From assembly GCA_913030945.1 (NCBI GenBank), contig CAJWEP010000005.1, forward strand, positions 1-43,112: DNA of 43,112 nt, read 5' to 3'. The position numbers were made by a program, and so were the translations under genes. Each line of letters starts with the position of its first letter. The first letter of the stretch is position 1. The notes beneath the pieces were generated by a model, which saw only the letters and a program-made list of their open reading frames with translations, was not told the DNA's origin and did not search any database. Source of the DNA: an uncultured Verrucomicrobiota bacterium. GTDB lineage: Bacteria; Verrucomicrobiota; Verrucomicrobiia; Limisphaerales; UBA1096. Below are positions 6,282 to 14,761 of this stretch, piece by piece.

Positions 6282-8666
6282 ATGTCGCTGGGTTGGAGGA
6301 TTCGTGTTGTCTTTATTGTGAGTCCATTCATTCCGTTGAATTATTGCCGCTTGGCCAAGACGACCGGCTTGGCCGGCGCATTGGCTGTCGGCTTGGTCAA
6401 GCCGGGGGCGGTGGAGATCGATTTCAACCGGGACATCCGGCCGGTGCTTTCTGGGAACTGTTTCCAATGCCACGGGCCGGACGCGGCCAAGCGCAAGGCC
6501 GGGCTGCGGCTCGACACGCGCAAGGGCGCGATCGAGGCGCGCGACGGCGTGCGGGCGATCGATCCGGCACGCTTGGCCAAGAGCGAGCTGCTGGCGCGCA
6601 TCACGGCCACCGACCCCGACACGCGGATGCCGCCGCCGGAGGCGAACAGCCGCCTGGCCCCGGAGCAGGTGAAGCTTCTGAGTGCATGGGTCAAGGCTGG
6701 CGGCGAGTACGACCGGCATTGGGCGTTCAATCAACCTGTTCGCCGGCCGCTGCCAGGCTTGGCTCCCGAGCGGCGCGCCTGGGCGAAAAACGCGGTCGAT
6801 GTTTTTGTCGCGGCAAAGCTGGCAGAGGCCGGCGTTGATCCATCGCCGGAAGCGGCCAAGGCGACTCTGCTTCGCCGGGTGAGCCTCGACCTGGTTGGTC
6901 TGCCGCCGTCGCCGGAACAGATTGCTGCGTTCGTGAATGATTCAAGCGCCGATGCATTCGAAAAGGTGGTGGATAATTTGCTGCAATCACCGCACTACGG
7001 CGAGCGTTGGGGACGCCACTGGCTGGACGCCGCGCGTTATGCCGACTCCGACGGCTACAGCCACGATGCTGCACGCTCGATGTGGCCGTACCGAGACTGG
7101 GTCATTTCCGCGGTGAACAGCGACCTGTCGTTTGACCAGTTTATCGTCGAGCAACTCGCCGGCGATTTGTTGCCGGACGCGACGTTGGCCCAGCGTGTGG
7201 CCACCGGGTTTCACCGCAACACGCAGATCAACACCGAGGGCGGGGTGGACAAAGAGCAGTTTCGCATCGACTCGATCTTCGATCGCCTTGTCACCACCGG
7301 CGAGGTGATGTTTGGGCTGACCCTTGGCTGCGCCCAGTGCCATGAGCACAAGTATGATCCGGTTTCACAGACAGAATACTACCAGCTGTTTGCCTTTTTC
7401 AACAACGCGGACGAGCCGCGCATCGAAGCGCCGACGCCCGTGGTCACGGCCAGGCGCGCCGAGCACAATGCCCGCGTGAGGCAGCTTGAGGCCAAGCTAA
7501 AATCGTTGACCAAGGAGGATGCCGGGCGCAAGTCGGTCGAAGTCAGCTTGGCCAAGCTGAAAAAGGCGCGGCCAAGCGCGGCGACAACATTGGTGATGGC
7601 CAGGCGCAAGGAGCCCCGCACCACGCGGCGGTTCGTGCAGGGCGACTTCACACGGCCGGCGGAGACCGTGCAGCCTGGCACGCCCGCGTCGCTGCATCCC
7701 CTGGCCAAGCCGACGCCGGACCGGCTCGATTTCGCCCGCTGGGTCGCCGCCCGCGACAACCCGCTGTTGGCCCGCGTGACGGTGAACCGCACTTGGCAGC
7801 ACCTGTTCGGGCGGGGCATCGTGGAGACGGAAAACGACTTTGGATCGCAGGGCATCCCGCCGACGCACCCGAAGCTGCTCGACTGGTTGGCGGTCGAATT
7901 TATGGAGAACGGATGGAGCCTAAAGCAGATTCACCGGCTGATCGTGACCTCGGCGACGTACCGACAGGCATCCTCCGTGCGGCGTGCCGATCTTGATCAG
8001 CTTGACCCGCACAACAGGCTTCTGGCCAGGCAGTCTCGTTTCCGTCTGGATGCAGAGTTGATACGCGACATGGCGCTCGTCTCGAGCGGGTTGCTCAGCG
8101 CGAAGATGGGTGGGCCTGGGGTATTCCCGCCACAACCGGACGGCTGCATGGACCTTGGCCAGCACCGCAAAACGTGGAAGGCGAGCAGCGGTGAGGATCG
8201 ATTCCGCCGAGCCGCCTACACGTACCGCTGGCGCAACACGCCGCACCCGGCGCTGAAGGTGTTCGACGCCCCGGACGGCCTGGCCACGTGCACGCGCCGC
8301 ATCCGCTCGAACACGCCGCTGCAGGCATTGACACTGATGAACGACCCAGCATTCGTCGAGTTGTCGATCGGCTTGGCCAGGCGCCTGATGGCAGAGGCGG
8401 AAAGTTCAGCGAATCGCATTCGGCTTGGCTTTCAACTTTGTCTGGGTCGTGAACCAGACGCCGAGGAATTGCGACTGATCACTGAATTGGTTGCAGGCCA
8501 GCAAACTGAATTTGCGGCACAAACTGCCGAGGCCAAGGCGGTGGTGTCCAAGGCGTCTTCGCTTGGCCAAGCGGGAAAGCCGGCCGGCAGCGATGCGGCG
8601 CTGGCGGCGTGGACGATGGCCTCGCGCGTATTGCTCAACCTCGACGAAACGATCACCCGCGAATGA
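6282..8666 (+). CDS. PSCyt1/DUF1549/DUF1553 cytochrome c-domain protein
   Basis: The ATG at 6282 is preferred over an upstream TTG; it gives a hydrophobic export signal and about 794 residues. Domain order: Planctomycete cytochrome C (PSCyt1, PF07635) with CFQCH at residues 60-64; DUF1549 (PSCyt2) with LRRVSLDLVGLPPSPEQ, HYGERWGRHWLDAARYADSDG and a second CxxCH, CAQCH, near residue 350; then DUF1553 (PSD1) with NRTWQHLFGRGIVETENDFG, NGWSLKQIHRLIV and NTPLQALTLMNDPAFVE. At under 800 residues it is shorter than many members, which carry inserted lectin-like domains. The gene overlaps the next by ATGA. These pairs are abundant in Planctomycetes and Verrucomicrobia; a role in polysaccharide or redox metabolism is suspected, not proven. 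Four exact palindrome copies lie in this gene. Confidence 0.93.
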   Translation: MSLGWRIRVVFIVSPFIPLNYCRLAKTTGLAGALAVGLVKPGAVEIDFNRDIRPVLSGNCFQCHGPDAAKRKAGLRLDTRKGAIEARDGVRAIDPARLAKSELLARITATDPDTRMPPPEANSRLAPEQVKLLSAWVKAGGEYDRHWAFNQPVRRPLPGLAPERRAWAKNAVDVFVAAKLAEAGVDPSPEAAKATLLRRVSLDLVGLPPSPEQIAAFVNDSSADAFEKVVDNLLQSPHYGERWGRHWLDAARYADSDGYSHDAARSMWPYRDWVISAVNSDLSFDQFIVEQLAGDLLPDATLAQRVATGFHRNTQINTEGGVDKEQFRIDSIFDRLVTTGEVMFGLTLGCAQCHEHKYDPVSQTEYYQLFAFFNNADEPRIEAPTPVVTARRAEHNARVRQLEAKLKSLTKEDAGRKSVEVSLAKLKKARPSAATTLVMARRKEPRTTRRFVQGDFTRPAETVQPGTPASLHPLAKPTPDRLDFARWVAARDNPLLARVTVNRTWQHLFGRGIVETENDFGSQGIPPTHPKLLDWLAVEFMENGWSLKQIHRLIVTSATYRQASSVRRADLDQLDPHNRLLARQSRFRLDAELIRDMALVSSGLLSAKMGGPGVFPPQPDGCMDLGQHRKTWKASSGEDRFRRAAYTYRWRNTPHPALKVFDAPDGLATCTRRIRSNTPLQALTLMNDPAFVELSIGLARRLMAEAESSANRIRLGFQLCLGREPDAEELRLITELVAGQQTEFAAQTAEAKAVVSKASSLGQAGKPAGSDAALAAWTMASRVLLNLDETITRE
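6350..6359. repeat. Iterated palindrome copy, signal-peptide region of the PSCyt gene
   Basis: Exact core read as RLAK, followed within 50 bp by GGCTTGGCCGG and GGCTTGGTCAAGCC, so the export-signal region is built largely from core-like sequence. Confidence 0.85.
6572..6581. repeat. Iterated palindrome copy in the PSCyt1 domain
   Basis: Exact core, preceded by CG; read as RLAKS. Confidence 0.85.
7543..7560. repeat. Iterated palindrome, 18-bp copy in the PSCyt gene
   Basis: TCAGCTTGGCCAAGCTGA is perfect over 18 bp; read as SLAKL. Its outer arms differ from other long copies, so symmetry, not arm sequence, is shared. Confidence 0.95.
8560..8573. repeat. Iterated palindrome copy near the end of the PSCyt gene
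   Basis: CGCTTGGCCAAGCG; read as SLGQAG in a Lys/Ala linker close to the C-terminus. Confidence 0.9.
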
Positions 8667-11030: not shown

Positions 11031-11057
11031 AAAAGCGGAGCCGCCTGGCTCCGCTTT
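11031..11057. terminator. Bidirectional intrinsic terminator between converging genes
   Basis: Inverted repeat AAAGCGGAGCC (11032-11042), loop GCCT, GGCTCCGCTTT (11047-11057), an 11-bp stem. The A-run on the left (11027-11034) provides a U-tract for the minus-strand Hsp20 transcript, and the TTT on the right, though short, closes the plus-strand transcript. It sits between the GspC-like gene and Hsp20, which converge. Confidence 0.85.
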
Positions 11058-11084: not shown

Positions 11085-11522
11085 TTATTCCGCGATGGAA
11101 ACTTCGAATGGTCTGCTGGCCTCGACCTTCGGCAGCTCGACCATGAGCAGGCCGTTCTTGAACTCGGCCTTGATCTTTCCGTTCTCGATACCGCTGCCCA
11201 GTTCGAACGAGCGGCTGAACTTGCCGTAAGCCCGCTCGTAGCGGTGGCCAAACTCCTTGCTTTCGCTGTGCTCAGCCTTGCGCTCGCCGGTCAGCGTCAG
11301 CACGCCGTCCTCCACCGTCAGATTGATGTCGCCCTTGGTCAGGCCGGGCAGATCGGCGGTCAGCGTGTAGGCGTCGGTGGACTCGACGATATCCACCGCC
11401 GGGTTCCAGGTGCCGGCATGGGTGGCCTTGGCCAGACTCCCGATCGAGTCGTTGAACAGGGTGCCAAACACATCTTCAAACACATTCAACGGATTCGTGT
11501 TTCGTTTCGTACAAGTCATCAT
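11085..11522 (-). CDS. Small heat-shock protein, Hsp20/alpha-crystallin family
   Basis: About 145 residues; an ATP-independent holdase chaperone of the cytoplasm. The alpha-crystallin domain spans roughly residues 40-140: WNPAVDIVESTDAYTLTADLPG, VEDGVLTLTGERK, FSRSFELGSGIENGKIKAEFKNGLLMVELPK, with the A-x-x-x-n-G-v-L motif present as AEFKNGLLMV. Three ATGs cluster at 11528, 11522 and 11519. The Shine-Dalgarno AAAGGA (11531-11536) is only two bases from the first but eight from the second, so 11522 is chosen. A perfect sigma-54 promoter match lies about 60 bp upstream, and a strong terminator follows the stop. No CIRCE element is seen. Confidence 0.95.
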   Translation of the reverse strand: MMTCTKRNTNPLNVFEDVFGTLFNDSIGSLAKATHAGTWNPAVDIVESTDAYTLTADLPGLTKGDINLTVEDGVLTLTGERKAEHSESKEFGHRYERAYGKFSRSFELGSGIENGKIKAEFKNGLLMVELPKVEASRPFEVSIAE

Positions 11523-11582
11523 AATCATTTTCCTTTCTGTTTTCAGGTTAACGGTTTCTATCGAACCAACTGCCCCAGTTAA

Positions 11583-11598
11583 TGCAAACCGCGTGCCA
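11583..11598 (-). promoter_or_regulatory. Sigma-54 (-24/-12) promoter for hsp20
   Basis: On the minus strand the sequence reads TGGCACG, CGGT, TTGCA, an exact match to the sigma-54 consensus TGGCACG-N4-TTGCW with correct GG-to-GC spacing of 12. Predicted transcription start is near 11572, giving a leader of about 50 nt before the hsp20 start. Transcription would require an AAA+ enhancer-binding protein; none is encoded in the window and I see no clear enhancer site. Confidence 0.7.
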
Positions 11599-11657
11599 AG
11601 CGATTAAGTCAAAAAATGGTCAAATAAAGCAACAATTCGTTTGTAAATAGCAGACAA

Positions 11658-11708
11658 GGGACATTATGGCACAGTTAAAAGTAGACTAAGTTAGGGACAA
11701 TGTGTCCC
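11658..11708. repeat. Possible relic of an IS end (IS21-like terminal repeats)
   Basis: GGGACA occurs at 11658 and again at 11694; the second copy forms an inverted repeat with TGTCCC at 11703-11708 (GGGACA-ATG-TGTCCC). Between them is GGCACAGTTAAAAGTAGAC, which recalls terminal repeats of IS21-family elements from memory. No transposase or helper ATPase gene is present. Low confidence; it could simply be an operator. Confidence 0.3.
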
Positions 11709-11713
11709 AAATT

Positions 11714-14014: not shown

Positions 14015-14761
14015 ATGATGTCCGGCCCTATGAACGAGGATATCCGCCAACTGCTGGTTTTACAGGATCGCGACGCGAAGGCCAGCCGGCTTGAGGCCGA
14101 GGTGGAATCGATCGATCCCGAGCGCGAAAAAACGAGGCGGGACAGCCTTCGGGCCCAGCAGGTGGTGGAGCAGGCCAAGCAGGATCATATGCAGCTGGAG
14201 GTTCGTCGGAAGGACCTGGAGAATGAGGCGGAGTCCAAAAGGGAGCAGATTCTCAAATACTCCCAGCAGCAACTCGAGACCAAGAAGAACGAGGAGTATC
14301 AGGCGCTGGCCCGGGAAATCGAGCACGTCCGTCAGGCGATCTCGGAACTCGAGGACCGGGAACTGGAATTGATGGAGGAGCAGGAAGCCTTCAAGGCAAA
14401 GCTCGCGGAGGCCAATCGGATGGCCGAGGAGTCCAAGGCGTCCGAGGCTCGAACGCTCTCCGAGTTCGACGAGCGCGAGAAAAACATCGAGAAGGAACTT
14501 GACGAACTGGATGACGAGCGCGAGGAGCTCGTCAAGACAATCAGCAAAAAAACGTTCGCACACTACGAGCGACTGCTCGACACCAAGGAGGGCAGGGTAA
14601 TCGTGGGCGTGGATCACGGCAGTTGCGGCGGCTGCCACATGAAGCTTCAGACGCAGGAAATCGTCAACGCCAAGAGCGGGCGGGAGATGGTCACCTGCGC
14701 CAACTGCGGCCGGCTCATCTACTACACGCGTGAGATGGTCATGGCTGATGAGTTGGATTGA
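14015..14761 (+). CDS. Coiled-coil C4 zinc-ribbon protein (CT398/CdsZ-like, PF02591)
   Basis: A 248-residue protein. Residues about 8-190 form a long charged alpha-helical hairpin (for example ESKREQILKYSQQQLETKKN and DEREKNIEKELDELDDEREE). The C-terminus has a zinc ribbon with CGGC at 204-207 and CANCGR at 228-233. This is the architecture of the widely conserved C4-type zinc-ribbon family; the chlamydial member CT398/CdsZ binds sigma-54 and type III secretion components. An ATG pair at 14015/14018 or ATG 14030 (MNEDIRQLLVLQDRD) may be the true start. Given the sigma-54 site 2.4 kb away, a link to sigma-54 is attractive but only inference. Confidence 0.85.
   Translation: MMSGPMNEDIRQLLVLQDRDAKASRLEAEVESIDPEREKTRRDSLRAQQVVEQAKQDHMQLEVRRKDLENEAESKREQILKYSQQQLETKKNEEYQALAREIEHVRQAISELEDRELELMEEQEAFKAKLAEANRMAEESKASEARTLSEFDEREKNIEKELDELDDEREELVKTISKKTFAHYERLLDTKEGRVIVGVDHGSCGGCHMKLQTQEIVNAKSGREMVTCANCGRLIYYTREMVMADELD

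Follow-up and report, generated by a model that had tools for sequence, protein, structure and literature searches.

Chaperone genes of bacteria are generally described as being under the control of sigma-32, a sigma-70-type factor, or of repressors such as HrcA. Sigma-54 promoters have also been reported at such genes. In E. coli, ibpB belongs to a sigma-32 operon that carries an additional sigma-54 promoter (PMC4316790, PMC4370416). In Chlamydia, the hrcA-grpE-dnaK operon is served by sigma-66 and sigma-54 promoters in tandem, and CtcC is an AtoC-like two-component activator devoid of a DNA-binding domain (PMC7482065, PMC8762339). In Myxococcus xanthus, the HsfB-HsfA pair includes an NtrC-like two-component activator of lonD, a heat-shock gene (PMC9109919, with reference to Ueki and Inouye 2002), and a survey from 2025 predicted sigma-54 promoters at the genes for GroEL, IbpA, DnaK and GrpE in Planctomycetota and Bacteroidota (PMC12316311). 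The locus considered here, a small heat-shock gene in a window of 43,112 nt (the whole stretch of DNA analysed) from an uncultured Verrucomicrobiota bacterium, very probably represents a two-component, sigma-54-dependent chaperone regulon, with hsp20 as one target and a PAS kinase and a response regulator (C181) as the predicted switch.

The hsp20 gene (11085..11528, minus strand) encodes a small heat-shock protein (Pfam HSP20, E=7e-23) with 16 orthologues in the genus, whose proteins were 75–100 % identical, and is followed by a predicted intrinsic terminator (11032..11057, minus strand; an 11-bp GC-rich stem and then a T run). Its predicted sigma-54 promoter (11583..11598, minus strand), read from 11598 to 11583 as TGGCACGCGGTTTGCA, is an exact match to TGGCACGNNNNTTGCW (TGGCACG-CGGT-TTGCA), with the GG at -24, the GC at -12 and the fixed spacing of the sigma-54 class. 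The distance from the promoter to the listed start of hsp20 (11528) is 55 nt, but the conserved start is more probably the ATG of the third codon, at 11522, because orthologues L024–L026 align only from 11522 onward. With transcription predicted from the promoter position to start at about 11572, the 5′ leader of the mRNA (11523..11572, minus strand) would be about 50 nt long. Thus, the perfect TGGCACG-N4-TTGCA with ideal spacing, followed by a leader of about 50 nt, that an initial annotation had described ahead of hsp20 was found again. A stretch of the leader, AGTTGGTT-N7-AAACC, was almost invariant in the 16 orthologues, and the spacer ahead of the promoter was less well kept.

Taken alone, the string is weak evidence for a promoter, since its two exact copies in the 3.41-Mb genome equal the two copies of a reversed control pattern; the second exact copy (C36) was set aside as it lies inside a sulfatase-like reading frame. 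At one mismatch, 0.62 matches to the consensus were expected in the window by chance. Comparison with the orthologues was more informative. When these were anchored on the -24 element, each of the eight core positions (TGGCA-N7-TGC) was conserved in 16 of 16, and the promoter was positioned at -67 to -70 relative to the start codon; the motif that the initial annotation proposed to look for upstream of orthologues was therefore present throughout the genus. In the 40 nt just upstream of the promoter, on the other hand, an average of 10 of the 16 sequences agreed per position, only four positions were invariant and the median pairwise identity was 0.475. Because the core is invariant whilst the adjoining spacer is only about 48 % identical, the promoter is taken to be real and, as judged from this alignment, is under selection as a predicted sigma-54 promoter. 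Most hsp20 genes elsewhere in the order (35–50 % identity) were without a convincing sigma-54 site, so conservation of the promoter is confined to the genus and scattered relatives.

Two further suggestions concerning the neighbourhood were not borne out. The perfect palindrome CTTGGCCAAG, which often takes the form CGCTTGGCCAAGCG, turns up repeatedly in coding and non-coding DNA, with 36 copies in 74 kb of the genome against 0.09 expected from base composition, and 20 exact copies in the window (for example at 8562, 11014, 11719, 12833, 13771 and 21949). In this it resembles other dispersed octamer palindromes, of which cyanobacterial HIP1 is an example. The overlap of the -24 element with a half-site of this palindrome had been remarked upon earlier, but the half-site is kept in only 7–12 of 16 orthologues per base, and the overlap was rejected as functional and put down to coincidence, the palindrome being a dispersed repeat. 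The nearby CT398/CdsZ-like gene (14015-14761, plus strand) was confirmed to encode a coiled coil and a C4 zinc ribbon (Pfam CT398_CC and zinc ribbon), and its chlamydial relative is reported to bind sigma-54 holoenzyme (paper cited in PMC7482065). No link between this gene and the hsp20 circuit was found, and the proposed local sigma-54 theme around it gained no support, the theme being genome- and phylum-wide.

Upstream of the hsp20 promoter are two conserved boxes of 15–17 nt (GNGNCAWWWTGTCYC) that the initial annotation did not contain. The first predicted enhancer box (11692..11710) is a perfect 6+6 inverted repeat, GGGACA-CAT-TGTCCC, with matrix scores of 17.2 on one strand and 19.2 on the other, and the second (11656..11672, minus strand), GTGCCATAATGTCCCTT (also written GTGCCATAATGTCCC), has a matrix score of 22.3; the matrix, which was built from chaperone promoters, reads GNGNCAWWWTGTCYCNY. 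Both boxes were also present in the aligned orthologues of the genus. Their centres, separated by 36 nt, lie about 130 nt (box 1) and 94 nt (box 2) ahead of the predicted transcription start, and enhancer sites of NtrC-type sigma-54 activators are usually found at such upstream distances. On this evidence the boxes are the predicted enhancer sites of hsp20 and the key to the putative circuit. The two predicted boxes were accompanied by four PF00158 proteins in the genome, corresponding to the enhancer sites and the AAA+ activator that typify the sigma-54 class.

A box-plus-promoter pattern was then searched for in 388 Verrucomicrobiota genomes, with the reversed pattern as control, giving 28 matches compared with none in the control; a looser box plus promoter gave 47 matches compared with five. 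Strict-pattern matches were found in 46 of the 388 genomes, and the frequencies in the phylum are lower bounds since the patterns were strict. The genes downstream were examined at 50 places, many of them from related species and representing few lineages, and comprised dnaK (33), hsp20 (11, including the present gene) and unrelated genes or noise (six). The first box in promoters selected with the pattern is present by construction, whereas additional boxes fall outside it, and a second or third box was found in 28 of 46 promoters compared with 0.023 expected per upstream region from shuffled sequence.

The dnaK gene of the same genome, which was found separately and is followed by groES and then groEL, has a promoter (TGGCATCTGGGTTGCT) 35 nt before its start codon and a single, weaker box (15.8 bits) at the right distance. 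Promoter and box were both present at all 11 of the dnaK genes scored in the genus and both absent from the second Hsp70 paralogue. A search of the genome with tight box–promoter spacing retrieved only hsp20 and one C132 site, the latter judged to be a chance match; dnaK was missed because its box is asymmetric. The sigma-54 theme predicted from these sites is genome- and phylum-wide, covering dnaK and hsp20, rather than local to the neighbourhood of hsp20.

The genome encodes sigma-54 itself (PF04552, E=3e-58; C212), so that rpoN, whose absence had been named beforehand as an argument against the promoter, is present. It also encodes four clear sigma-54 activators (PF00158) and is 93.6 % complete. 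Activators were gathered from 13 genomes, comprising eleven with a match to the pattern and two further members of the same genus, and a tree of 52 proteins contained just one clade with exactly one member from each of the 13 genomes. This universal clade consists of a receiver-AAA+-Fis response regulator and was still monophyletic after the addition of outgroup proteins (support 0.86). Three of the 13 genomes had just two activators, of which the second was a NifA-like GAF type that is absent from the present genome. The candidate NtrC-family response regulator (C181, L202:2866-4236; PF00072, PF00158 and PF02954) has the receiver, the AAA+ domain with GAFTGA in its sequence, the Fis-type helix–turn–helix and the partner kinase that characterize the family. 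A gene for a soluble PAS-HisKA-HATPase histidine kinase (L202:4236-5474) directly precedes that of the regulator in the operon, and a soluble PAS histidine kinase adjoined the clade regulator at the loci where the upstream neighbour was read. In this genome and genus the operon is headed by a corA-like Mg2+ transporter gene (L202:5483-6481, minus strand), which hints that the stress circuit is tied to metal uptake.

The box matrix, derived from chaperone promoters only, was applied to DNA tracts no longer than 8.5 kb at the 13 regulator loci and around 20 other activators. Boxes were detected upstream of the kinase-regulator operon at seven of the 13 loci (the present genus, the g109 genus, G212 and G324) and around none of the 20 other activators in 161 kb, a difference (Fisher p=0.0004) for which the loci with boxes come from four independent lineages; a strong box was absent from the remaining six kinase-regulator loci in the scan. 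The two boxes of the present genome lie on the flanks of a sigma-70-like promoter (TTGCAT-N16-TAGAAT), and that of the g109 genus immediately before TATATA, so that boxes at these operons adjoin sigma-70-like and not sigma-54 promoters. NtrC is known to act on a sigma-70 promoter of its own operon. From the boxes adjoining sigma-70-like sequences in the present genome and the g109 genus, self-regulation of the regulator therefore probably acts on a sigma-70 promoter. The C181 regulator would thus appear to be the activator on the basis of co-occurrence, elimination and self-regulatory boxes.

In the proposed circuit, the promoter, the boxes, their conservation, the targets, the universal regulator clade, the operon boxes and the absence of HrcA are established at the level of sequence; we infer that the regulator binds DNA and is phosphorylated and that heat or protein damage induces the circuit. 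The kinase would sense a signal, presumably heat or protein damage, and, as is usual for its family, would phosphorylate the regulator, which would then bind one to three GNGNCAWWWTGTCYC boxes about 80–160 nt upstream of its targets. Oligomerizing on paired boxes, it would loop to the sigma-54 polymerase at -24/-12 and remodel and open this by ATP hydrolysis, a family trait of such activators, giving rise to hsp20 and dnaK-groES-groEL mRNA. The regulator would also bind the regulatory region of its own operon, thereby feeding back on itself.

Several other explanations were considered. That the sigma-54-like string is a functionless chance match would agree with its being no commoner in the genome than the reversed control, but is scarcely credible given an invariant core at a fixed distance in all 16 diverged orthologues and the recurrence, in distant Verrucomicrobiota, of the box–promoter pair ahead of dnaK and hsp20. 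Alternatively, sigma-54 might serve a side promoter only, while the main control of hsp20 lay with sigma-70 or a different sigma factor, with a repressor or with an RNA thermometer in the leader. The striking conservation of the leader would fit this, as would a sigma-70-like match (9/12) overlapping the start region, although one such match was found where 0.5 were expected, and E. coli ibpB offers a precedent for a sigma-54 promoter besides sigma-32 control (PMC4316790, PMC4370416). Against it, the fold of the leader was no better than that of shuffled RNA (z=0.53) and matched no Rfam family, no CIRCE operator was found in the window with up to three mismatches allowed, and HrcA was detected in none of 35 Verrucomicrobiota genomes compared with seven of 14 control genomes. 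Predominant control of hsp20 by such other means is thus considered quite unlikely. The choice of sigma-54 over HrcA or a thermosensor in the initial annotation agrees with these negative results, and its proposal that sigma-54 controls hsp20 is well backed by promoter conservation in 16 of 16 orthologues, by the upstream boxes and by the presence of rpoN and activators.

It is also conceivable that the sigma-54 chaperone regulon is real and that its activator is another enhancer-binding protein, either one of the other three in the genome or one missing from the draft. The presence of four clear activators in a genome that is 93.6 % complete leaves room for this, as do the six of 13 candidate operons without a strong box; since no other activator clade spans all 13 genomes, and the 161 kb around the 20 other activators were free of boxes, we regard it as unlikely. 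That the circuit is otherwise correct but responds to a different signal, such as redox state, metal or starvation, and has chaperones among its outputs is a possibility to be taken more seriously, albeit a doubtful one. PAS domains are often redox or ligand sensors. The PAS domain of the kinase, the corA-like Mg2+ transporter gene at the head of the operon in the genus and the broader sigma-54 regulons that are common elsewhere all point in this direction, but, noise aside, the targets across the phylum were all dnaK and hsp20, which are classic protein-damage genes, as are groES and groEL behind dnaK in the present genome.

With the kinase-regulator pair as the preferred activator, the circuit probably does in Verrucomicrobiota the work of HrcA/CIRCE elsewhere. 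The wider proposal, that this pair together with sigma-54 constitutes the main cytosolic heat-shock control of the Verrucomicrobiota, replacing HrcA and sigma-32, and is possibly shared with some Spirochaetales, is one towards which we lean only slightly. A Spirochaetales hsp20 gene (L038) that had been chosen solely for the similarity of its protein was likewise preceded by a perfect promoter and two boxes; the same genome encodes a regulator with the best outgroup score (590 bits) and an adjoining PAS kinase whose N-terminus resembles those of the Verrucomicrobiota kinases, the placement of the regulator in the universal clade having a tree support of 0.20. Upstream of a Poribacteria hsp20 gene (L036) there are two good sigma-54 strings, TGGCACGCAATTTGCT and TGGCATAGAAATTGCT (L036:4850-4910). 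No box was seen in this upstream sequence and the best regulator match was distant (432 bits), which suggests separate sigma-54 control; without a box or a close regulator, this gene was not counted as part of the same circuit.

Transcription from sigma-54 promoters requires, to our knowledge, an activator driven by ATP, and the chaperone response would therefore depend wholly on a signalling kinase, which would differ from sigma-32 titration or HrcA folding. If the wider proposal above is true, sigma-54 kinase-regulator control would add one more general type to the known modes of heat-shock regulation in bacteria. A search of the open-access literature for heat shock and sigma-54 in Verrucomicrobia and Akkermansia returned nothing direct, and no earlier description of the control of DnaK, GroEL and Hsp20 in these HrcA-less bacteria was found there. 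The present analysis supplies a testable wiring diagram of kinase, regulator, operator sequence, promoter and targets. The passages cited above on sigma-54 and chaperone control likewise describe no circuit of kinase, regulator and boxes; the link of sigma-54 to chaperones is already known, and it is the predicted wiring and reach of the circuit that are new.

The domain layout of the kinase and regulator is shared with AtoS-AtoC, ZraS-ZraR and NtrB-NtrC. AtoC and AtoS were the closest curated models, yet the regulator scored far below the cut-offs for AtoC (461 vs 714 bits), ZraR (408 vs 760) and NtrC (395 vs 559 bits), and the kinase below that for AtoS (255 vs 646). E. coli ibpB resembles the present hsp20 in that both encode a small heat-shock protein and have a sigma-54 promoter; in ibpB, as described in the passages concerned, this promoter is additional to sigma-32, whereas in hsp20 it is the sole recognizable promoter and its predicted enhancers are shared with dnaK. 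Chlamydia, from a related phylum, likewise combines a sigma-54 promoter on a chaperone operon with an AtoC-like two-component activator. According to the accounts cited, however, it retains HrcA/CIRCE, in contrast to the 35 Verrucomicrobiota genomes examined, and CtcC has no DNA-binding domain, whereas the regulator here has one of Fis type, with conserved boxes. HsfB-HsfA, as outlined in the citing paper, is similarly a two-component system with an NtrC-like response regulator and a heat-shock target, but HsfB is a hybrid kinase, whereas the present kinase is PAS-HisKA-HATPase only, without a receiver, and the targets named for HsfBA are lonD and secondary metabolism rather than the dnaK, groESL and hsp20 predicted here. 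The 2025 survey, in common with this work, connects sigma-54 computationally with the main chaperones; its passage on chaperones deals with promoters only, names neither an activator nor an enhancer motif and omits Verrucomicrobiota from the chaperone group, whereas the analysis presented here adds a candidate activator and its predicted boxes.
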